From Ruegeria atlantica (GTDB lineage Bacteria > Pseudomonadota > Alphaproteobacteria > Rhodobacterales > Rhodobacteraceae): a stretch of 64,000 bases of DNA. Location: positions 682,001 through 746,000 of the forward strand of contig NZ_WQFE01000001.1 in NCBI RefSeq assembly GCF_013033965.1. Direction: 5' to 3'. Shown one piece after another: positions 1 through 10,626 of the stretch (the stretch's first letter is position 1; each line of letters opens with the position of its first letter). The notes under the pieces are model-generated. The model was not told where the DNA came from. It was given only the letters and a program-made list of their open reading frames with translations, and searched no databases. The position numbers and the translations under genes are program-made.

Positions 1-667
1 GGTGGCGTACGACTGAAAGGTCGTGGCTGATGAACAGCATCGCCATGTTTTCCTGAGTGCGTAGTTCATCCAGAAGATTCAGGATTTGGGCCTGAACTGA
101 TACATCAAGCGCGCTGACTGGCTCATCTGCCACAATGATCGACGGGCTGTTCGCAATGGCCCGTGCGATCGCGATGCGCTGCCGTTGACCACCGCTGAAA
201 TGTTGAGGAAACCGCGCCGCGTGTTGAGGGTTCAAACCAACCCGCTCAAGCAATGCTTGAACAAGGTCCATTTCGTTGCTTCGTTCTGCCGTTTTCTGAA
301 TGCGAAACGGTTCGGCCAACGTGTATCCAACGGTCTTTCGAGGATGCAGCGAGGAATAGGGATCCTGAAACACCATCTGCACCTGGCGCGCCAATTTGCG
401 TCGGTCAGAAGGCTTGGTGGCGTCAAGTGCCTCACCGTTCACCACCAATGACCCACTCGACTGCTCGACAAGGCCAACGATCGCTTTTCCCAAAGTCGTT
501 TTCCCACTGCCAGACTCGCCGATCAAGCCGAGCACTTCTCCGGGGTTTACGGACAGAGTGATGTTATTGAGGGCTCGGAATGTGGAAGGTGCTTCAAAAA
601 CCCCTCTTGGCGCAGATGACGCGAACTCGACTGACAGGTTCTCTATATTGAGTGCTGGGTTAGTCAT
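1..667 (-). CDS. Oligopeptide/dipeptide-type ABC transporter ATP-binding protein (DppF-like), 3' end outside window
   Basis: Second ATPase of a Dpp/Opp-type importer. Translating the minus strand from ATG at 667 gives an open frame to the window edge (about 222 codons, C-terminus missing). It contains Walker A GESGSGKT, the ABC signature SGGQRQR, Walker B IIVADEP and the H-loop ISHDL, in the expected order and spacing. The start overlaps the stop of the upstream ATPase (TGA 666-664) in an ATGA junction, so the two are translationally coupled. The pair is divergent from the binding protein and permease genes starting at 1864. The family powers uptake of peptides or other cationic/amide solutes; the neighbouring agmatine genes suggest a polyamine-like substrate (inference). 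Confidence 0.9.
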   Translation of the reverse strand, partial: MTNPALNIENLSVEFASSAPRGVFEAPSTFRALNNITLSVNPGEVLGLIGESGSGKTTLGKAIVGLVEQSSGSLVVNGEALDATKPSDRRKLARQVQMVFQDPYSSLHPRKTVGYTLAEPFRIQKTAERSNEMDLVQALLERVGLNPQHAARFPQHFSGGQRQRIAIARAIANSPSIIVADEPVSALDVSVQAQILNLLDELRTQENMAMLFISHDLSVVRH

Positions 668-1671
668 GCGGTCTTCCTCTGAGGTGTCGTCCCGCTGCGC
701 AAGTAGCAAGCCACCAGATGGTCACTCTTATCAATCATGACTTGTGGCGGCGTCGCCTCGGTACAGTTACCTACGGCCTCACTGCATCGATCTCGGAAAG
801 CACAGCCCGAAGGGCGTTCCCAAATGGAGGGAGGCGCGCCTGGGATAGGAGTTAGCCGGTCCTGATCTGCATCCAGTGAAGGATGCGCACTGAGAAGGCC
901 AATCGTGTATGGGTGTTGAGGGGACTCAAGCACCTGTTCGGTAGGCCCGCGTTCCACGTCCCGACCCGAATAAAGCACAATAACTTCGTCGCTCATTTGC
1001 GAAACGACGCCCAGATCATGAGTAATCAAGACGACCGCCATATCGAGGTCCCGAGAGAGAGCCTTAAGCAAATCGAGGATTTGCGCCTGAATGGTCAGGT
1101 CCAGAGCAGTCGTCGGTTCATCTGCAATCAGCAACCGGGGTTTGAATACAATCGCCATCGCGATCATCACACGCTGTCGTTGACCACCGCTAAGTTGATG
1201 TGGATAGCGCTTAAGCATTCCCTCCGGGTCGGGCATTCCTACTTGGGACAACACCTCGATGGCGCGAGACCATGCCTCTTTTGCGGGTTGCTTGCGGTGG
1301 GCCTGAACACATTCGATTATCTGGTCACCGATCCGCAAGACCGGGTTGAGGCTGCTCATAGGGTCTTGGAAAACCATCGCTATTTCAGTGCCCTGCAGAT
1401 CGCGCAGTCTCTTTGGCGATAGCTGAAGAAGATTCTGGCCATCAAACTCAACAGCTCCGGAAACATTGAGAGAGCGCTTGTCCAGCAATCCCATAATCGC
1501 CATGGCTGCTGTGCTTTTACCTGAGCCGCTTTCCCCGACGATGCCTAGGCATTGGCCGCGACTCAGTTGGAATGACAACCTGTCCACGATTGCTGCAGAC
1601 CGGGGTCCGTTACCGACTGAAACGGACAGGTTATCAACTCTCAATAGTTCCATTTGCAGAGGCGTTCCCAT
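664..1671 (-). CDS. Oligopeptide/dipeptide-type ABC transporter ATP-binding protein (DppD-like)
   Basis: 335-residue ATPase, full length for the DppD/OppD family. Walker A GESGSGKST lies at residues 46-54, Q-loop MVFQDPMSSLNP near 100, signature LSGGQRQRV near 160, Walker B LLIADEPTTALD near 180, and ITHDLGVV near 215. The C-terminal region carries the oligopeptide-transporter motif with spaced cysteines (CAFRDRC..C) typical of the family. An internal ATG at 1653 is an alternative start; neither start has a strong Shine-Dalgarno. It is the first gene of a two-gene minus operon with the ATPase at 667 and is divergent from the substrate-binding protein. Membrane-associated, works with the permeases at 3531-5464. 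Confidence 0.92.
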   Translation of the reverse strand: MGTPLQMELLRVDNLSVSVGNGPRSAAIVDRLSFQLSRGQCLGIVGESGSGKSTAAMAIMGLLDKRSLNVSGAVEFDGQNLLQLSPKRLRDLQGTEIAMVFQDPMSSLNPVLRIGDQIIECVQAHRKQPAKEAWSRAIEVLSQVGMPDPEGMLKRYPHQLSGGQRQRVMIAMAIVFKPRLLIADEPTTALDLTIQAQILDLLKALSRDLDMAVVLITHDLGVVSQMSDEVIVLYSGRDVERGPTEQVLESPQHPYTIGLLSAHPSLDADQDRLTPIPGAPPSIWERPSGCAFRDRCSEAVGNCTEATPPQVMIDKSDHLVACYLRSGTTPQRKTA

Positions 1672-1863: not shown

Positions 1864-3519
1864 ATGACCAAACGAACACCGACACGAAATTCACCACAGT
1901 TCCAATTGCCACGCCGGTCATTCCTTGCTGGGACGTGTTCTATGGCGGCGATGGCATTCGCCCCCACAGGTCGCGTATGGGCGGATACCGCTGCAACTGC
2001 TCCTGACATTGGCGCGCGCGATCCCAATACGCTTGTTGTTCTGGTCGACGCCACGGTCGAAAACCTAGACCCAGCGACGAATATCGAGTGGGCTTATGGC
2101 TTGCGTCCCATCTACGAGACCCTGACGATTCTTGACGGAAGCGATACTCTTTCGGTCAAACCAGCGCTAGCAGAGGCCTGGGAAGCCAATGAAGACAACA
2201 CAAGCTGGACGTTCACGCTGGTCGATGGCGTGACCTTCCACGATGGCACGCCGTTCAACGCAGAAGCCGTGAAAAAAGCGGTGACCCGGATGGTGCTGCA
2301 TCCTGCTGGTCTTGCCGGAACCTGGCAACTTGACGATCCCGAGACACAGATTGTCGTCGTTGATGACAGGACCGTTCGTTTTGATCTGGGAGAACCACGT
2401 CCCTTCTTCGACAGGCAGGTTAGCTCGCAATACGGGTTCTGGATGGCCAGCCCAACTGCTGCCGAAGCCAATTCAAAGGGCGATGATGACATGGGGTCCG
2501 AGTTTCTTCAGTCCAACCCTGTGGGAACGGGCCCTTACAAGCTGGAGAGCCTGAATCCAGGCCAAGACGCCACCTTTGTTGCCAACCCAGACTATCGTGG
2601 CGGGTGGGAGCATCCACATTTCAACCGTGTCATCACCAAGACGATGCCTGTATCCGCAACACGCAGACAGCTGTTGGAGACCGGTGAGGCTGATATGACG
2701 CTGGCGATGGAGCCGGAAGATATGATGGCCTTACGGGACGATCCGCGGTTCAACATGATCGACGCGCCCACTTTTACGGTTCAATACGTTGCGTTTGCCA
2801 CAGATGGTAAGCTTGCTGATCCAAAAGCAAGGCAAGCAATCAGCCATGCGTTTGATCACGACGCATACATCGAGCAGGTAGCCCTTGGCACGGCAGACAA
2901 GCCGACATCGGTTTTCCCCGCACAAATGCAGGGACTTGACGGCAAGGATCGCCTGTTGCCCTTCGACCTGGATCGCGCCCGGGCATTGCTTGAAGAGGCT
3001 GGCATTGCGGAAGGCACCGAACTCACAATGGCCTACTACGCTGGGTTCGGAGATATCGAAGGTCAACTGCTGCAGGCCTGGCTGGCTGAAATTGGCATTG
3101 ACCTGAAACTTCAGGAGCTATCTTTCTCGGCCTATCTCGATGTGTTCTTCGGCGAAGGTGAAGCTGACGAGCGCCCGGATCTCTTCTACTTCTCCTGGTG
3201 GCCGAACGTCGATCATCCCTACAGCTTCGCCTGGGGCCTGTTTAGCGGAGACGCCGCAACTTACGACGGCAATGCCGGTCGTTATGCCAACGATGAGGCG
3301 ACGGCGTTGATCGACGAGCTTCGCAACCAGGTCATGACCGAGGATATGGCGGCCAAGTTCCGGCGCCTGGCAGACATTCTGACAACTGAGGACCCTGCCT
3401 GGCTTCCGATCCTGCAGGAACGCGCGCAATTCGTGTCACGAAATGACATCAAGGGCGTTGAGAACAACCCGATCTATGTTGCGACGCTGGACATGTACAA
3501 TCTGTCGCGCGGCAACTGA
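1864..3519 (+). CDS. ABC transporter substrate-binding protein, SBP_bac_5 (peptide/nickel/opine) family, Tat-exported
   Basis: 551-residue periplasmic binding protein. I place the start at ATG 1864 rather than further upstream because an AGGGAG-like element precedes it and the N-terminus then forms a signal peptide with a twin-arginine motif (LPRRSFLAG, near residues 16-24) and an Ala-rich h-region ending near VWA. The mature part shows family hallmarks: an early VVLVDATVENLDPA segment, YETLTILDG, W.F.L.DGVTFHDGTPFNA, and NPVGTGPYKLESL. It is the first gene of a plus-strand operon with two permeases and agmatine deiminase. The ligand cannot be read from sequence; agmatine, N-carbamoylputrescine or arginine-containing peptides are suggested by context. 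Confidence 0.9.
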   Translation: MTKRTPTRNSPQFQLPRRSFLAGTCSMAAMAFAPTGRVWADTAATAPDIGARDPNTLVVLVDATVENLDPATNIEWAYGLRPIYETLTILDGSDTLSVKPALAEAWEANEDNTSWTFTLVDGVTFHDGTPFNAEAVKKAVTRMVLHPAGLAGTWQLDDPETQIVVVDDRTVRFDLGEPRPFFDRQVSSQYGFWMASPTAAEANSKGDDDMGSEFLQSNPVGTGPYKLESLNPGQDATFVANPDYRGGWEHPHFNRVITKTMPVSATRRQLLETGEADMTLAMEPEDMMALRDDPRFNMIDAPTFTVQYVAFATDGKLADPKARQAISHAFDHDAYIEQVALGTADKPTSVFPAQMQGLDGKDRLLPFDLDRARALLEEAGIAEGTELTMAYYAGFGDIEGQLLQAWLAEIGIDLKLQELSFSAYLDVFFGEGEADERPDLFYFSWWPNVDHPYSFAWGLFSGDAATYDGNAGRYANDEATALIDELRNQVMTEDMAAKFRRLADILTTEDPAWLPILQERAQFVSRNDIKGVENNPIYVATLDMYNLSRGN

Positions 3520-3530
3520 GCGGCAAGCAG

Positions 3531-4538
3531 ATGCTTCGGTTCATTCTCCGCCGCGCAATCGCAACAACGATTCTGATCGGCGGAGTCGTATTGATGACAT
3601 TCGCGCTCGCCCGGCTTTTGCCGGGCGATCCCGCTCGTCTGATCGCCGGTGCCCGGGCCGATGCTGACGCGGTGGCGGCAGTCAGGGAACGCCTGGGACT
3701 GGATGACCCAGTTGGCATGCAGTTCCTGACTTATGTGAGCAACGTTATGGAAGGTGACTTTGGTCGTTCGGTTGTCACACGCCGTCCGATTTCCGAAGAC
3801 ATCGTCACCTTTTTTCCGGCAACGCTGGAGCTGGTCCTTCTGGCGGCCTGCATCTCACTTGTACTTGGTGCCTTGTTGGGTGTTCTGGCTGCGGTGCGCA
3901 GTGGCACACCTTCGGACGTTGGCGTGCGGGGCGTGGCCGTACTGGGCCTTTCCGTGCCCGATTTCTGGTTGGCGTTGGTCTTCCAGCTGCTGTTTTTCGC
4001 AACGCTCGGCCTATTGCCGTTTGGAGGTCGTCTGGGAACCGGCGTCACACCACCGGACTTCGTAACGGGTTTCATGACACTCGACAGCCTTCTGGCCGGT
4101 CGGTTTGACCTGCTTGTCGATGCACTGAAGCATATGATCCTTCCGGTTACAGTTTTGGCCATCCCTTCAATGGCGATCACGATCCGCGTCGTTCGCACCA
4201 CAATGCTTGAGGTTCTGTCGCAGGATTTCATCCGAACGGCGCGCTCCAAAGGCATTCGGCCGGTTCGCGTTTACTTGCGGCATGCTCTGCGTAACGCGCT
4301 TTTGCCGATCGTGACGATTTTTGGTCTGAACACAGGTCTTTTGATCTCAGGAGCGGTGTTCATTGAGTTGATCTTCGATTGGCCGGGCTTAGGACGCTAC
4401 ACAGCCAACGCAATCGCGTCTTCGGATTACAACGCCATTATGGCGATCACACTTGTCGTTTCGATTGCCTACACCTTGATCAACTTCTTGGTCGACCTCA
4501 GCTATTCGCTGCTCGACCCGCGGGTGAAACTCTCATGA
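3531..4538 (+). CDS. Dpp/Opp-type ABC transporter permease (DppB-like)
   Basis: 335-residue inner-membrane permease, normal length. It starts with a membrane segment (residues about 9-30), then the family motif LLPGDPARLIAGARADADAV, the long periplasmic loop, and about five further helices. The coupling motif around EVLSQDFIRTARSKGI.. (EAA loop) near residues 224-245 contacts the ATPase. It begins 11 bases after the binding-protein stop, and its TGA stop overlaps the next ATG (4535). Part of the transporter formed with the ATPases at 1-1671 and the permease at 4535. Confidence 0.93.
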   Translation: MLRFILRRAIATTILIGGVVLMTFALARLLPGDPARLIAGARADADAVAAVRERLGLDDPVGMQFLTYVSNVMEGDFGRSVVTRRPISEDIVTFFPATLELVLLAACISLVLGALLGVLAAVRSGTPSDVGVRGVAVLGLSVPDFWLALVFQLLFFATLGLLPFGGRLGTGVTPPDFVTGFMTLDSLLAGRFDLLVDALKHMILPVTVLAIPSMAITIRVVRTTMLEVLSQDFIRTARSKGIRPVRVYLRHALRNALLPIVTIFGLNTGLLISGAVFIELIFDWPGLGRYTANAIASSDYNAIMAITLVVSIAYTLINFLVDLSYSLLDPRVKLS

Positions 4539-5464
4539 GCTCAGATTCCAACTTGATCCGTCGAAGCCAAAGCTTGCAATTTCCGGGACGCGAACGCGCA
4601 GCACAGATTGTTAGGTTTGCGACATCTTCCGGTCAGGCCCTTCTGGCAGTTTGCATCGTCTCGTTTATCCTCGTCGTCTCGGTTTCTGCTTTTGGCGCTT
4701 TTATTCTGGACATACATGTCACCGCCTTCGATCCGTTGAAGATGAACATCATGGCGCGGCTCGAGCCGCCGAGTGGAGAACACTGGATGGGTACCGACAA
4801 GATTGGGCGAGACATGCTAGCCCGGGTCGTTGCCGGATCATGGATTTCGCTATCGGTTTCGTTCGCGGTTTTGGCTGTAGCATCTGTGGTCGGCACCTCG
4901 GTCGGTCTGGTCGCAGGATACGTCGGCGGATGGGTTGATGAGGTTTTGATGCGGTTTACAGATCTGTTTCTGGCCTTTCCGGCATTGATTCTGGCTGCGG
5001 CTATCGCCGCGAGCTTTGGTGGCGGCATGGTCTCAACCACCGTCGCATTGGCCGCGGTTTTCTGGCCCTGGTACGCCCGACTTATCCGCAGCCGTGTGCT
5101 TTCCTTGAAAGAACAGGAATTTGTCGCGGCCAGCCGATGCCTTGGTGCATCGCATACGCGGCTGATCTTCACATCGCTGCTGCCGATGGTGTGGCCACTG
5201 GTGATCGTGCAAGCAACGACGGATGTAGGGTTCGTCATTTTGGCGGCGTCGGGCCTGTCTTTTCTAGGGTTGGGCGCACAGCCGCCCACTCCGGAATGGG
5301 GGGTTATGATTTTCGAAAGCCTGACCCACCAACCTGCTTCCTGGTGGCTTGCCGTCTTCCCGGGGGGCGCAATTGCGCTGGTTGCTATTGGCTTCAACCT
5401 ATTGGGTGACTCCTTGCGCGACCGTTTGGATCCATCTCTAGGGGCATCGGAGGCCGGAGTTTAA
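4535..5464 (+). CDS. Dpp/Opp-type ABC transporter permease (DppC-like)
   Basis: 309-residue permease partner of the preceding gene. The ATG at 4535 overlaps the previous stop as ATGA, which decides the start over a longer upstream extension. DppC hallmarks: cytoplasmic N-terminal arm, first helix near residues 35-57, EHWMGTDKIGRDMLARV.. (the conserved GTD..GRD motif), EAA loop RSRVLSLKEQEFVAASRCLG, and LSFLGLGAQPPTPEWG near the end. Its TAA shares its last base with the ATG of agmatine deiminase (5464), so transport and agmatine deimination are co-translated. Confidence 0.93.
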   Translation: MSSDSNLIRRSQSLQFPGRERAAQIVRFATSSGQALLAVCIVSFILVVSVSAFGAFILDIHVTAFDPLKMNIMARLEPPSGEHWMGTDKIGRDMLARVVAGSWISLSVSFAVLAVASVVGTSVGLVAGYVGGWVDEVLMRFTDLFLAFPALILAAAIAASFGGGMVSTTVALAAVFWPWYARLIRSRVLSLKEQEFVAASRCLGASHTRLIFTSLLPMVWPLVIVQATTDVGFVILAASGLSFLGLGAQPPTPEWGVMIFESLTHQPASWWLAVFPGGAIALVAIGFNLLGDSLRDRLDPSLGASEAGV

Positions 5465-6579
5465 TGGAACACATGAATAGGCGGTTCTTTTTAGGCGCAA
5501 CCGCTTCCTTAAGTTTGGCGTCGCCAAGTTGGGCCAGAAAGGACAAACAAGTGGACTATAGTCAAACGGGCGCAACAATCGTGAAAGGCGCCGGTGGCAC
5601 AGATGGCTATCACTTCCCTGCCGAATGGGAAAAGCACGAGCGGACATTGATGCAGTTCCCATCCCCCCAGAACTGGCGCCGCCGTGATCTGGAGGATGCC
5701 CGAAGGGAGTGGGCTGAAACCGCAAATACCATCGCTGAGTTCGAGCCTGTGACGATGGCGGTTCGTGAGCAGGATATTAAAGCCGCTAAAAGCATGCTCA
5801 GCAGCCAGATCAAGCTGATCAAAATGCCGCTTAACGACGCCTGGTCGCGCGACAGCGGTCCGATGATCCTGAAAAACGCTTCAGGTGATCGTCGCGTTGC
5901 GGGGTTCACGTTTAATGGGTGGGGCAAGAAATTCCCTCCATATCGTGACGATCAGCTCGTTAAAGGAAGGCTCGCTGCCAAGTTGGATATGCCAATGTAT
6001 CAGAGCAATCTGGTGCTCGAAGGTGGGGCGGTAGCATTTGATGGGCAGGGAACCGTTCTGACCACTGAAGAGTGCCTGCTGAATTCCAACAGAAACCCTG
6101 GCTGGACCAAGACTGAAATCGAAGCCGAATTACGGTCACATCTCGGCGTGATGAAAGTCTTGTGGCTGCCTCGAGGTTTAACACCGGACCCGATTACCGA
6201 TGGCCACATTGATGGAATAGCGGCATTTGCAGCGCCAGGAATGGTCTTACTGCACACAACCGATGATCCGAGTGATCCGAATATGCAAATCACGCAGGAG
6301 GCTCGGGCTATCCTCGAAAGCGTAACGGATGCAGCTGGCCGGAAATTAGACGTAGTTGGGATTCCTCTGACCAGTTTTGATGTCGTCCACATGAATTTCT
6401 ACATTTGTAACGGTGCGATTATTGTGCCCATTGCGGGACGCCGGTCGGAAGACGATGAGCCGCTTGGGATTTTGCGCGAAGTGTTCCCGCACCACGAAGT
6501 CAAAGGTGTTTCAGGAAGGATGATCGGTGGCGGTGGTGGCGGCGTTCACTGTATCACGCAACAGGTGCCAGCCATCTGA
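5464..6579 (+). CDS. aguA: Agmatine deiminase family protein (PAD_porph fold) with apparent Tat signal peptide
   Basis: 371 residues, guanidino-modifying family. Known family reaction: agmatine + water gives N-carbamoylputrescine + ammonia. Conserved parts seen: EWEKHERTLMQFP near 54-66, SRDSGPM at 128-134, TDGHIDG at 245-251 and the glycine run followed by the nucleophile in VHCITQQ (Cys363). Odd feature: the N-terminus MNRRFFLGATASLSLAS then PSWA is a convincing twin-arginine signal peptide, whereas classical AguA is cytosolic. The enzyme may therefore act in the periplasm, upstream of import. Start may be 5464 or 5473 (Met4); 5464 overlaps the permease stop. The next pathway enzyme, AguB, is convergent at 6662. 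A secreted peptidyl-arginine deiminase-like activity cannot be excluded. Confidence 0.87.
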   Translation: MEHMNRRFFLGATASLSLASPSWARKDKQVDYSQTGATIVKGAGGTDGYHFPAEWEKHERTLMQFPSPQNWRRRDLEDARREWAETANTIAEFEPVTMAVREQDIKAAKSMLSSQIKLIKMPLNDAWSRDSGPMILKNASGDRRVAGFTFNGWGKKFPPYRDDQLVKGRLAAKLDMPMYQSNLVLEGGAVAFDGQGTVLTTEECLLNSNRNPGWTKTEIEAELRSHLGVMKVLWLPRGLTPDPITDGHIDGIAAFAAPGMVLLHTTDDPSDPNMQITQEARAILESVTDAAGRKLDVVGIPLTSFDVVHMNFYICNGAIIVPIAGRRSEDDEPLGILREVFPHHEVKGVSGRMIGGGGGGVHCITQQVPAI

Positions 6580-6661: not shown

Positions 6662-7543
6662 TTATTGGCCCTGCTCAGTCATCCCATCCAAGCTGCGCAA
6701 GGCTTTGTACATATTTGGCCTCCGATCCCGGAAAACACCCCAATTGTCGCGATATGCGTTGGCGGCATCCAGGTCCACGGCTGCAGTAATCACCGCCTCT
6801 GAAGCGCTATCCGCGTCCGCAAGAATTTCACCGGTATATCCGGCAATGAAAGACGTTCCATAAAACAGGCCTTCCGTATCACCCTGAGTTTCATGGCCAA
6901 CACGGTTAGAGGCAACAAGCGGCACCATATTCGCCGCTGCGTGCCCTTGCATTGTCCGACGCCAATGGCCGCTGCTGTCGAGTTCCGGTTTCTTGGGCTC
7001 CGATCCGATCGCAGTTGGGAACATCAGAATTTCAGCGCCTCGCAATACAAGGCTGCGAGCTGTTTCCGGAAACCATTGATCCCAGCAAATACCGCACCCA
7101 ACGCGGCCGTATTTGGTTTCGACAACTTGGAACCCGGTGTCACCAGGACTGAAGTAGAACTTCTCCTCATATCCAGGTGCTTGCGGAATATGCGTCTTGC
7201 GGTAATTGGTCAGAACTGAGCCGTCTGCGTCAATCACAGCCAACGAGTTGTACCGCGTCAGACCAGCGCGTTCGTAATAAGACACCGGAAGGACCACATC
7301 CAATTCTTTTGCCAGCGCACTAAAGTGGCTGACCACTCTGCTGTCCTCAAGCGTGCGCGCCATGTCAAAGTATTGGAGATCCTGTTCTAAACAGAAGTAC
7401 GGCGTTTCGAACAACTCCTGCAAAAGAATGACTTGCGCACCAGCATCGGCGGCCTGCCGGACGAGTCCTTCGGCTCTGGCAATGTTGTCGTCAATGTCCC
7501 AACTACAGGGCATCTGCGTGGCGGCGAGAGTGATGTTTCGCAT
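6662..7543 (-). CDS. aguB: N-carbamoylputrescine amidase (nitrilase superfamily)
   Basis: 293-residue carbon-nitrogen hydrolase, usual AguB length. The catalytic triad is visible: Glu43 in LLQELFETPYF, Lys116 in YRKTHIPQAPGYEEKFYF, and Cys153 in GCGICWDQWFPE. The phrases ETPYFCLEQD and the C-terminal GVFRDRRP.MY are characteristic of AguB rather than other nitrilases. Known reaction: N-carbamoylputrescine gives putrescine, CO2 and ammonia, in the cytoplasm. It lies 5 bases downstream of the aminotransferase gene, so aminotransferase and amidase form a minus operon. It converges on the deiminase and ends at a hairpin terminator. Confidence 0.93.
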   Translation of the reverse strand: MRNITLAATQMPCSWDIDDNIARAEGLVRQAADAGAQVILLQELFETPYFCLEQDLQYFDMARTLEDSRVVSHFSALAKELDVVLPVSYYERAGLTRYNSLAVIDADGSVLTNYRKTHIPQAPGYEEKFYFSPGDTGFQVVETKYGRVGCGICWDQWFPETARSLVLRGAEILMFPTAIGSEPKKPELDSSGHWRRTMQGHAAANMVPLVASNRVGHETQGDTEGLFYGTSFIAGYTGEILADADSASEAVITAAVDLDAANAYRDNWGVFRDRRPNMYKALRSLDGMTEQGQ

Positions 7544-7548
7544 GCCGA

Positions 7549-8919
7549 TTATCTTTCTGCCTGAAATTCAGTGATGCTCTCGCTGATTGCGCCGACTATC
7601 TCGTCGCATTGCTCTTTGGAAATGATCAGCGGGGGCGACAAAACGATCCGGTCACCGACCGGGCGAACAATCACGCCGCGCTCCATACATTTGCGGAATA
7701 CGTGATGCCCGGCGTTAGCACCGGCATCCATCGGTGCTTTGCTCGACTTGTCGCTTACCAAGTCTATTCCCATCATCAGGTGGCTTCCGCGTACGTCCCC
7801 AACAATCGGAAGATTCAGAAGCGACTTTGCGGTCTCTTGCAAGTAAGGCCCGACTTCGCACACGTTTTCGAGCAGGTTTTCACGATCCATGATTTCAATG
7901 TTTTTCAATGCCGCGGCGCAAGCGACTGGATGGCCGAAATATGTCAGACCCAACGACAACAAGCCGCCTTCGCATTGCGGCTTTGCTATAACATCGTAGA
8001 CCTTGGTCGAGATCAGAGTCGCACCCAAAGGGATGTAGCCAGAGGTCAAGCCTTTGGCGCAGACCAGGATATCTGGCTGGTAGTCAAACAGTGTTTCTGA
8101 CGCGAACCATTCCCCCAGCCGCCCAAAGGCCGTCACGACCTCGTCAGCGATGTACAGCATGTCGTAGCGCTTGCAGATCTCCCACATACGTTTGTGGTAC
8201 CCCTCGGGCGCGACCAGCACGCCACCAGCGCCCATGATGGGTTCGGCAATAAAGGCCGCTACATTGTCGGGACCCAATTGCTGGATGCGTGCCTCGAATT
8301 CGCGAACGAGGTAGTCGCAGTATTCAACATCGCTCCAGCCATCCGGTTTGGCGTAAAGATTGGCCTCGGACACGTGGTTTATGAAGTCTTCTCCAATCCG
8401 GTCGAACCCAAGTTTTGTCCCGTGAATTCCGGTGAGTGATGCGGCGACATAGGTCGCGCCGTGATATCCGTTTTGACGGGAAATGATCTTCTTCTTTCGA
8501 TGTTGGCCCTTCTGGTCAAAATAGAAATGAACCAGCCGAATGGCGGCATCATTCGCTGTTGAGCCGCCACATGTGTAGTAAACGTGGTTCAAATCACCAG
8601 GCGCAAGCTCTGCGAGTTTAGCGCCCAGGTTTGCCGCTGGAACGTTAGAGCTGTGGCCAAACGGGTTGTAGTACTGCATGTTCATGACCTGCTCGGCGAT
8701 GGTGTCTGCCATTTCCTTGCGGCCATGCCCGATGTTGACACACCAAAGCCCGGCAATACCATCCAACAGGCGGTTGCCCTCAGTATCGCTCACATGCATT
8801 CCCTCGGCGCGCTCGATGATCTGGCTGCCTTCCTTCGAGAAGGTCGAGAAGTCGGTATACGGATGGATGAGATGCGCGCGATCTTGTTCAAATGCGGCGT
8901 TTCGATCGAGGGTGGTCAT
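7549..8919 (-). CDS. Class III PLP aminotransferase, putrescine-pyruvate type (SpuC-like)
   Basis: 456 residues from ATG at 8919, chosen because GGAG lies about six bases upstream; an in-frame ATG at 8931 overlaps that element. Family marks: GLWCVNIGHGRKE near 58-69, YYTCGGSTANDAAIR near 114-128, GYHGATYVAASLTG near 151-164, D259 in IADEVVTAFGRLGEW, and the PLP lysine K289 in LVCAKGLTSGY. Resembles putrescine or spermidine/beta-alanine:pyruvate transaminases. With AguB next door, putrescine to 4-aminobutanal is the likely reaction. It is divergent from the aldehyde dehydrogenase at 9151 that would take the aldehyde onward. Confidence 0.88.
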   Translation of the reverse strand: MTTLDRNAAFEQDRAHLIHPYTDFSTFSKEGSQIIERAEGMHVSDTEGNRLLDGIAGLWCVNIGHGRKEMADTIAEQVMNMQYYNPFGHSSNVPAANLGAKLAELAPGDLNHVYYTCGGSTANDAAIRLVHFYFDQKGQHRKKKIISRQNGYHGATYVAASLTGIHGTKLGFDRIGEDFINHVSEANLYAKPDGWSDVEYCDYLVREFEARIQQLGPDNVAAFIAEPIMGAGGVLVAPEGYHKRMWEICKRYDMLYIADEVVTAFGRLGEWFASETLFDYQPDILVCAKGLTSGYIPLGATLISTKVYDVIAKPQCEGGLLSLGLTYFGHPVACAAALKNIEIMDRENLLENVCEVGPYLQETAKSLLNLPIVGDVRGSHLMMGIDLVSDKSSKAPMDAGANAGHHVFRKCMERGVIVRPVGDRIVLSPPLIISKEQCDEIVGAISESITEFQAER

Positions 8920-9150
8920 CGTAGACTCCATGAAAACTTGTGCACCATTCGGCTGATTGCTGAGATCAGCATCGGCTAACAACTGTGCCCAACACAGTCC
9001 CCCACACGTGGTATCGACGCGACTAGAGACCTCCATCTAGGTACGGAAACGTCATCTGGTTCCCTGCACCGTTGACTGTAACCAAGGACGTTATTGCTGA
9101 TGCAATGGGCATTCTCAAAGCGTCGATCGATGCCTTGCAAGAGGTCTGAA

Positions 9151-10626
9151 ATGCTGGATACCAAAGTGACGAAACTGAACCTCAAAGACCCTTCTCTCTT
9201 GGAAACACGCGCTTACGTGAATGGAGAGTGGGTCACCAAGGAAACTACCTTTGCAGTCTTCAACCCAGCCAATGGTAATCTGATCGCGAATGTTGCCGAC
9301 ATGGATGCCGACGACACGCGTGGCGCGATCGACGCAGCATACGCTGCGAAGTCCGAGTGGGCAGAGCGTACAGGCAAGGAACGCGCCTTCATTTTGCGCA
9401 GATGGTACGACCTGCTGATTGAGAATACGGATGATCTGGCAATGATCCTTACCGCAGAAATGGGTAAACCTTTGGCCGAGGCCCGCGGCGAAATCCTTTA
9501 TGGTGCATCCTTCATTGAGTGGTTTTCTGAAGAAGCCAAACGGATTTATGGTGACGTTATCCCTGGTCACCAGCGCGACAAACGCATCATTGTTTTGAAA
9601 CAACCGGTGGGCGTTGTTGGGTCTATCACACCCTGGAACTTTCCAAATGCGATGATCGCGCGCAAGGTCGCGCCTGCGCTGGCTGTGGGCTGCACATTTG
9701 TTGCACGTCCCGCTGAACTCACTCCACTGTCAGCACTTGCCATGGCCGTGTTGGGTGAACGTGCTGGTATTCCGGCGGGCGTTTTCAACGTTATCCCATC
9801 ATCTGACAGTGCCGGAGTGGGCCAAGAACTCTGCGCGAATGAAAAGGTAGCCAAAATCACGTTCACCGGTTCCACACGGGTAGGCAAAATCCTGATGCGG
9901 CAGTGCTCGGATACCATTAAGAAAATGTCGCTGGAATTGGGTGGCAACGCGCCCTTCATCGTCTTTGATGACGCCGACATCGATGCAGCGGTCGAGGGTG
10001 CAATGATCGCAAAATACCGCAACAACGGGCAGACCTGTGTGTGTGCCAACCGTATTTATGTGCAGTCGGGTGTATACGAAGAATTCGCAAGAAAACTCCA
10101 AGAAAAAGTCTCCCGATTGAACGTCGGCAATGGCTTTAGCGATCACGTGACCATCGGACCTCTGATCAATGAGGCTGCAGTTGCAAAGGTTGAAGAACAC
10201 ATTGCTGATGCGACGTCTAAAGGCGCGACCATAGTCGAAGGTGGACAGCGTTCAGATCTTGGTGGCACATTTTTTGAACCAACCGTTTTGACAGGCGTGA
10301 CGCAGGGCATGAAGGTAGCCAAGGAAGAGACCTTTGGTCCAATCTCCCCGCTTTTTCGGTTCGAGGATGAAGCTGATGTCGTCGCCATGGCCAATGACAG
10401 TGAGTTCGGGCTGGCATCGTACTTCTACAGCCGTGATTTAACCTGTGTTTGGCGCGTTGCCGAGGCTTTGGAAAGCGGGATGGTCGGGATCAACACTGGC
10501 TTGATCTCAACTGAGGTGGCGCCCTTTGGCGGCATCAAGCAATCCGGACTGGGACGCGAGGGTGCTAAGTACGGTGCGGAGGACTTTTTGGAAGTAAAAT
10601 ACCTATGCCTTGGCGGAATAAGTTAA
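9151..10626 (+). CDS. NAD(P)-dependent aldehyde dehydrogenase, succinate-semialdehyde dehydrogenase-like
   Basis: 491 residues from ATG 9151 (AGAGG six bases upstream); a longer in-frame start at 9094 is less likely. Catalytic residues: general base Glu262 in SLELGGNAPFIVFDDAD and nucleophile Cys296 in NNGQTCVCANRIYV, with the double-Cys arrangement typical of GabD. Also TPWNFPNAMIARKVAPALA and GGIKQSGLGREG. Known family role: succinate semialdehyde (or 4-aminobutanal-type aldehyde) to acid. One oddity: the usual lysine of the KP(A/S)E cofactor motif is arginine here (VARPAELTP, residues 184-192). Divergent from the aminotransferase; the shared 231-bp spacer likely holds both promoters. Confidence 0.9.
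   Translation: MLDTKVTKLNLKDPSLLETRAYVNGEWVTKETTFAVFNPANGNLIANVADMDADDTRGAIDAAYAAKSEWAERTGKERAFILRRWYDLLIENTDDLAMILTAEMGKPLAEARGEILYGASFIEWFSEEAKRIYGDVIPGHQRDKRIIVLKQPVGVVGSITPWNFPNAMIARKVAPALAVGCTFVARPAELTPLSALAMAVLGERAGIPAGVFNVIPSSDSAGVGQELCANEKVAKITFTGSTRVGKILMRQCSDTIKKMSLELGGNAPFIVFDDADIDAAVEGAMIAKYRNNGQTCVCANRIYVQSGVYEEFARKLQEKVSRLNVGNGFSDHVTIGPLINEAAVAKVEEHIADATSKGATIVEGGQRSDLGGTFFEPTVLTGVTQGMKVAKEETFGPISPLFRFEDEADVVAMANDSEFGLASYFYSRDLTCVWRVAEALESGMVGINTGLISTEVAPFGGIKQSGLGREGAKYGAEDFLEVKYLCLGGIS

Follow-up and report, generated by a model that had tools for sequence, protein, structure and literature searches.

Exported relatives of agmatine deiminase have precedents. Agu2A′ of Pseudomonas aeruginosa was reportedly described by Williams and co-workers, in the abstract of a 2010 paper, as secreted to the periplasm and as having a role in biofilm. 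The protein (PA14_48450 of strain PA14) is listed as an experimentally identified substrate of twin-arginine translocation (Tat; PMC6085387), agmatine metabolism is counted among the periplasmic Tat substrates (PMC4899797) and the agu2ABCA′ operon is summarized as responding to environmental agmatine and as enhancing biofilm (PMC4211729). Here, we describe a Tat-signalled deiminase of the PAD_porph (AguA-like) family in a 64,000-nucleotide stretch of Ruegeria atlantica DNA (contig NZ_WQFE01000001.1, positions 682,001 to 746,000; 'the window' means this whole stretch), where its gene follows the permease genes of a Dpp-type importer. The sequence makes it very probable that the enzyme is periplasmic. 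That import is coupled here to periplasmic deimination of an agmatine-like guanidine is our preferred explanation, which we hold to have about an even chance of being right.

The first-pass annotation of this DNA had read the genes for the substrate-binding protein (SBP), DppB, DppC and the deiminase (5464–6579) as one operon; both the coordinates and the operon reading are confirmed, with all four genes on the + strand. The features are as follows; identities are for the five relatives L036–L040 introduced below.

1864..3519, + strand: SBP, SBP_bac_5, of the Dpp/Nik/Gsi type (PF00496, 272.7 bits), with a twin-arginine signal (LPRRSFLAG)
3531..4538, + strand: DppB-type permease (PF00528 and PF19300; identity 84–99%)
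4535..5464, + strand: DppC-type permease (PF00528; identity 79–95%)
5473..6579 (listed open reading frame from 5464), + strand: Tat-signalled deiminase, PAD_porph (AguA-like) family (PF04371, 360.8 bits; gathering score 25)
5473..5547, + strand: region that probably encodes the twin-arginine signal peptide, with an approximate end (from the sequence; residues 1–27 of the listed frame have a predicted local distance difference test score, pLDDT, of <50)
6662..7543, − strand: AguB, N-carbamoylputrescine amidase, convergent with the operon (TIGR03381, 447.9 bits; cut-off 410.25)
7549..8925, − strand: class III aminotransferase (PRK07036; NF005447, 665.8 bits; cut-off 618; identity 78–98%)
9154..10626, + strand: aldehyde dehydrogenase of the succinate-semialdehyde type, outside the conserved 12-gene block (TIGR01780, 721.9 bits; cut-off 646.35)
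664..1671, − strand: DppD-type ATPase, divergent from the SBP gene
L004 5676–10709, left of the window: DppF, LysR, two signal-less deiminases (ADI2 and ADI3) and LuxR

The N-terminus of the deiminase (MEHMNRRFFLGATASLSLASPSWA) contains NRRFFL followed by an uncharged hydrophobic stretch. Twin-arginine signals were called using a simple sequence rule; of 4100 upstream stretches that had been shuffled, 65 satisfied it. All eight members of the deiminase clade (the window and L036–L042) pass this rule with NRRxF and a hydrophobic stretch; the signal starts with MNRR in seven of them and with LNRR in L042. Over the 24 codons from MNRR the window and L036 differ by nine synonymous and four non-synonymous codons, which is the pattern expected of translated sequence. 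The PRRSFLAG motif of the SBP is invariant (6/6) and TatC is present in the genome. The Tat signals that the first-pass annotation had seen on both the deiminase and the SBP are thus borne out at the sequence level. It had also noted that the ATG of the deiminase shares a base with the DppC stop. This is literally true of the ATG at 5464, and L036 has a GTG with the same overlap. Translation probably does not begin at 5464, however: the start that is conserved is Met4, at 5473 (MNRR), and no one-base overlap is found in L037–L040. The MNRR start lies 8, 8, 15, 15, 17 and 17 nt downstream of the DppC stop (the window and L036–L040, respectively); the genes are therefore tightly coupled, and the overlap is not the conserved feature. 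The doubtful ATG could be taken to mean that the start was mis-called, that the signal is an artefact and that the enzyme is cytosolic. However, with Met4 as the start no part of the signal is lost, no further Met occurs before residue 63 and all eight clade members are signalled; we reject this explanation as very improbable.

A scan of genome contigs gave 21 loci, nine of which have a relative of the deiminase at ≥60% identity: seven over most of its length and two in part (L044 and L056). In the five relatives whose contig has the importer, Ruegeria arenilitoris (L036), Roseovarius albus (L037), Leisingera aquaemixtae (L038), a Hoeflea sp. (L039) and an Azospirillaceae metagenome-assembled genome (L040), a 12-gene block is intact and in the same order: LuxR-ADI3-ADI2-LysR-DppF-DppD-SBP-DppB-DppC-TatADI-AguB-aminotransferase, where TatADI is the Tat-signalled deiminase. 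In L040, the ATPases are more distant (40 and 51%). The Tat-deiminase directly follows DppC in all six importer loci, the window included, and AguB, which in the window scores over its NCBIfam cut-off, adjoins there as it does in the five relatives with the block. The operon of deiminase and Dpp-type importer, as first proposed from the window alone, is conserved together with the Tat N-terminus. The closest named relative among those compared is R. arenilitoris (deiminase identity 91%). L042 is a 3.4 kb contig, and L044 starts within the deiminase and retains AguB and the aminotransferase. In L036, PotABCD-like genes and a second aminotransferase (14.9–20.0 kb) lie between the block aminotransferase and an aldehyde dehydrogenase, unlike in the window, where the dehydrogenase comes directly after the aminotransferase.

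The block is rare. At the genus level the deiminase is found at orthologous level in two of 54 genomes, and in a draw of 248 genomes of the family its ortholog occurs in the R. atlantica genome only; the next-best match (44%) is not nearer to it than the paralog in its own genome. A plasmid search with the SBP gave no match at E ≤ 1e-60. This rare and patchy occurrence suggests horizontal spread. A foreign base composition was considered and rejected, the G+C content being 54.8% for the block and 54.9% for the rest of the window. In R. haliotis (L056, 9899–10213) only the last 71 residues of the Tat-deiminase are present (70% identical), and the other block genes have no match there except for a distant one to LysR; this remnant is probably a decayed copy.

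Three PAD_porph proteins only are matched in this genome: the exported deiminase, ADI2 and ADI3. The exported deiminase falls under both AguA cut-offs (TIGR03380, 320 against 381.8 bits; PRK13551, 322.5 against 483 bits), but so do ADI2 and ADI3, and its low score alone therefore says little. Its structure model has a pLDDT of 87.5; a Foldseek search with this predicted structure gave PDB entries 6nic, 6nib and 3h7c as the best matches, with template-modelling scores of 0.83 for the plant enzyme AIH and 0.71–0.73 for PPAD. For the trees and the residue comparison we used 139 of 146 deiminase sequences, leaving out the window copy (identical to L004), L126 (= L042), L060 (= L096) and the short rows L044, L056 and L059 (two). 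The active-site residues D, W, D, E, H, D and C are present in the window enzyme and in all 31 Tat-type rows.

Plant AIH is described as holding the terminal amine of agmatine through Asp220, the backbone of Ala360 and a water-bridged Asp89 (PMC6447857). The Asp220 position, which alignment with plant AIH places immediately before the T[ND]GH motif, is Asp or Glu in the Arabidopsis thaliana, Enterococcus faecalis and Streptococcus mutans enzymes. The exported enzyme of the window has Ile244 here, and the Tat-type rows have Ile (26) or Val (5) throughout. The other 108 rows have Glu (50), Asp (24), His (10), Gly (9), Ile (6), Ser (3), Leu (2) and Met, Gln, Arg or Pro (one each); the six signal-less Ile rows are the six ADI3 rows of the block. 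ADI2 has Glu, as do the characterised agmatine deiminases of E. faecalis and S. mutans, and L183, a signal-less row within a Tat group, has Asp. The Asp89 position is kept in 31/31 Tat-type rows. Independent pairs on the tree gave three contrasts between Tat type and hydrophobic residue, with an average of 2.7 in the expected direction; with only three contrasts, the association is suggestive but not significant. About 25 residues of plant AIH at or before the gate loop (291–314) have no counterpart in the window enzyme, although shortened loops are also frequent in signal-less rows. The Tat clade of the window (eight rows) lies apart from the other Tat-type rows on both trees, and on the more careful tree it is inside a group of signal-less rows (26 rows, support 100/98). 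A single Tat clade (32 rows including L183) is not rejected by the approximately unbiased (AU) test on 62 of the 139 rows (p = 0.155), and we thus refrain from concluding that export was gained more than once. The absence of such a clade from 200 bootstrap trees (0%) was discounted, as the signal-less L183 breaks the other Tat group in any case.

The SBP matches 11 NCBIfam models, each of them below its cut-off, and lies far under the cut-offs of the DppA, NikA and GsiB equivalogs (DppA, NF043070: 110.1 against 1005 bits). Its best match in the PDB is entry 5u4o, named only as an ABC (ATP-binding cassette) transporter substrate-binding protein. Peptide termini are bound in DppA by Asp408 and Arg355. 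At the first of these the SBP has Asn448, invariant in 6/6 sequences, and at the second a gap. Judged from the sequence, this speaks against ordinary dipeptides as ligands and has no bearing on what the ligand actually is. A peptide-specific SBP, which the first-pass annotation had named as fatal to its scheme, is made less likely by these two positions. The structure model of the SBP is poor (pLDDT 38.3, six sequences).

We propose that the block is a patchily distributed catabolic unit that acts on an external, agmatine-like guanidino compound. The pentein-fold deiminase, exported by the Tat system, would convert guanidine to ureido groups in the periplasm, and the Dpp-family importer with its Tat-signalled SBP would bring the substrate, its ureido product or both through the inner membrane. 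In the cytoplasm, judging from what is known of these families, the signal-less ADI2 and ADI3 would deal with any remaining guanidine, AguB would form putrescine by removing the carbamoyl group, and succinate would be reached through the aminotransferase and a succinate-semialdehyde dehydrogenase. The substrate of the exported enzyme may be agmatine or another guanidine. The families present, with the aminotransferase and the succinate-semialdehyde dehydrogenase, make a catabolic role likely. Elsewhere in the genome SpeA (674.1 against 624.1 bits), NspC (415 against 409.05 bits) and an agmatinase (197.9 against 174.3 bits) are encoded together, beside a carboxynorspermidine synthase-like gene that is under its cut-off; putrescine synthesis thus does not need the block.

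Comparable gene sets occur with other importers. The P. aeruginosa plasmid locus L057 has the agu2ABCA′ operon, with a deiminase, AguB, an SBP and a Tat-deiminase; the signal sequence of the Tat-deiminase is the one printed for PA14_48450, and the SBP scores best with PotF (316.9 bits, cut-off 636). A plasmid of Phyllobacterium sp. T1293 (L061) has a Tat-deiminase, a whole Pot-type importer, a PRK07036 aminotransferase, AguB, LysR and a second deiminase. The importer ATPase is over the potA subfamily cut-off, and the SBP and permeases score best with PotD, PotB and PotC, under their cut-offs. In both L057 and L061 the Tat-deiminase gene points the same way as the Pot-type genes. The aminotransferase of L061 (641.1 bits), like that of the window, passes the PRK07036 equivalog cut-off, a hint that two different importer types feed one and the same cytosolic route. 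Gene names for the next three loci were assigned by similarity to reference sequences. In a Sinorhizobium locus (L058) the genes for a deiminase, a Tat-deiminase and a Pot-type importer all point the same way; L178 combines a Tat-deiminase with another deiminase, LysR, AguB and PotABCD, spread over both strands; and in L125 a Tat-deiminase is divergent from another Dpp-type importer. The recurrence of a Tat-deiminase with importers of varied families, those of the polyamine type especially, fits an agmatine-like or ureido-amine ligand.

Several observations weigh against import coupled to periplasmic deimination. With ADI2 and ADI3 in the same block, a periplasmic step looks unnecessary. L041 has TatADI, ADI2, AguB and LysR, but nothing in its 20.9 kb matches a Dpp- or Pot-type gene. 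The SBP was found in its own genome alone among 387 genomes of the class and 394 of the family, with at most three candidates scored per genome; its restriction to the block is weak evidence, since the ortholog of the Tat-deiminase is likewise confined to that genome among the 248. The remaining points come from the class at large, where PAD_porph proteins are present in 125 of the 387 alphaproteobacterial genomes. Our class sample comprised 86 of 134 PAD_porph places, with one genome per genus (two for g406), and omitted the R. atlantica genome and most cut-off genes. Fourteen of the 86 are of the Tat type, two of them assigned by hand (the rule was overruled for L095 and L143, taken as Tat, and for L138 and L153, taken as not Tat). 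Importer genes are not enriched within 7 kb of the Tat-type enzymes (1/14, compared with 15/72 for the others; p = 0.45), and AguB is near none of the 14, compared with 26/72 of the others (p = 0.008). These are lower bounds, as 24 of the 86 loci (six of them Tat-type) have less than 7 kb on one side, and they refer to Dpp- and Pot-type importers only. Most Tat-type relatives in the sample are therefore outside any visible AguB pathway. Among 15 further rows from 14 Rhodobacteraceae loci, seven are Tat-type, one of which has both importer genes and AguB. By these neighbour counts, Tat-type enzymes do not typically show the importer coupling that the window has. The upstream neighbours of ten solo Tat-type enzymes (dnaB in four cases, a class I tRNA synthetase, a class IV aminotransferase, an RNase T2 and three without a Pfam match) suggest no common pathway.

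The version given in the first-pass annotation is that the exported enzyme converts agmatine to N-carbamoylputrescine outside and that the importer brings the latter to AguB. The conserved AguB, the invariable place of the Tat-deiminase after DppC and the parallel sets in L057, L061 and L178, where a Tat-deiminase and AguB also occur with importer genes of the polyamine type, all fit this version, but it does not account for an acidic-residue ADI2 kept without a signal in the five block relatives and in L041, nor for Ile at the Asp220 position of the exported enzyme, and we consider it doubtful. In particular, a first step simply moved outside finds no support when two signal-less deiminases are kept in all five relatives, and neither does agmatine as the substrate when Ile stands where plant AIH has Asp220 for the agmatine amine. 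It is possible, if still somewhat doubtful, that the importer instead brings in agmatine unaltered (or a polyamine) to supply the cytosolic ADI2 and AguB, as next to ordinary AguA, the exported enzyme having a separate job on another guanidine or in a response to external agmatine, as proposed for agu2ABCA′ in biofilms. The Glu of ADI2, the 15 of 72 signal-less deiminases with importer genes at ≤7 kb and the environmental response ascribed to agu2ABCA′ (PMC4211729) would agree with this; yet it is the Tat-deiminase, not ADI2, that sits in the importer operon in 6/6 loci.

A further candidate substrate is a larger guanidine that lacks a free amine in the usual position, such as a bis-guanidine (for example arcaine), an acyl-agmatine or an arginine-containing peptide, with an importer that fits the ureido product. 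The Ile or Val of every Tat-type row, the Ile of all six ADI3 rows and the missing counterpart of the plant gate-loop residues point this way. Against this, the independent contrasts are too few for significance, the shortened loops are shared with many signal-less rows, a hydrophobic residue need not exclude agmatine, Asp89 is kept, and a single literature search showed no paper on bacterial use of arcaine. We think such a substrate unlikely. The fuller form of this idea, in which an exported enzyme not built for the free amine of agmatine converts a larger or bis-guanidine to a neutral ureido group, the Dpp importer takes the ureido product and cytosolic ADI3 or ADI2 with AguB yields putrescine, is distinctly unlikely. 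The pairing of a Tat-deiminase with an importer, on which it builds, is seen with Dpp-type and Pot-type importers alike.

Other observations concern the surroundings of these genes. Left of the block (L004 2679–5672) are a carbamoylase-family amidase (PRK09290, 531.9 against 452 bits) and an amidohydrolase. Ureido compounds are possible substrates of the amidase; the amidohydrolase has a Sec-like N-terminus and is matched in its C-terminal part in L036 and L037. Nine arginase/agmatinase-family matches in the R. atlantica genome (contigs C1, C10, C23 and C34) suggest broad use of guanidino compounds. In four Rhodobacteraceae loci (L095, L184, L185 and L186, at ∼8.8–10.2 kb of each) a solo Tat-type deiminase adjoins dnaB, with no match for AguB or a Dpp or Pot permease nearby; each would be an exported guanidine-modifying enzyme without a visible pathway.

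If the deiminase does act before import, the charge and shape of the guanidine would be changed in the periplasm to suit the importer, instead of agmatine being imported as such. It would also mean that many alphaproteobacterial proteins of the 'agmatine deiminase family' are exported and perhaps have another substrate, and, with 14 of 86 being of the Tat type, agmatine metabolism deduced from gene presence alone could then err on the place of the reaction and perhaps on its chemistry.

The first-pass annotation had called the arrangement a variant of the agmatine pathway that it had not seen described. This holds in part: exported deiminases are known (Agu2A′ in PMC6085387, and the Tat-type enzymes counted above), whereas the present arrangement looks new, and, as far as titles and the beginnings of abstracts show, the literature searched has nothing on N-carbamoylputrescine import or on this block. 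Compared with classical AguA (plant AIH, PDB entries 6NIB and 6NIC; E. faecalis, 2JER), the exported enzyme has the same predicted pentein fold and the same active-site residues, but Ile in place of Asp or Glu at the Asp220 position; the plant gate loop is longer, and the E. faecalis AguA copy examined has no signal. The importer resembles the Dpp/Opp systems (DppA, GsiB and NikA) in its SBP_bac_5 protein and its DppB and DppC permeases, and differs from DppA in having Asn448 and a gap in place of Asp408 and Arg355. L061 has a Pot (polyamine) importer, not a Dpp importer, and its Tat-deiminase groups with Agu2A′. The Agu2A′ operon has in common with the block a Tat-signalled PAD_porph deiminase, another deiminase that lacks a signal, AguB and an importer SBP. 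In L057 that SBP is PotF/PotD-like and has no adjoining permeases, whereas the window has DppB and DppC, and the two exported deiminases are 35% identical and fall into different Tat groups on both trees, although a single Tat clade is not rejected (AU p = 0.155).

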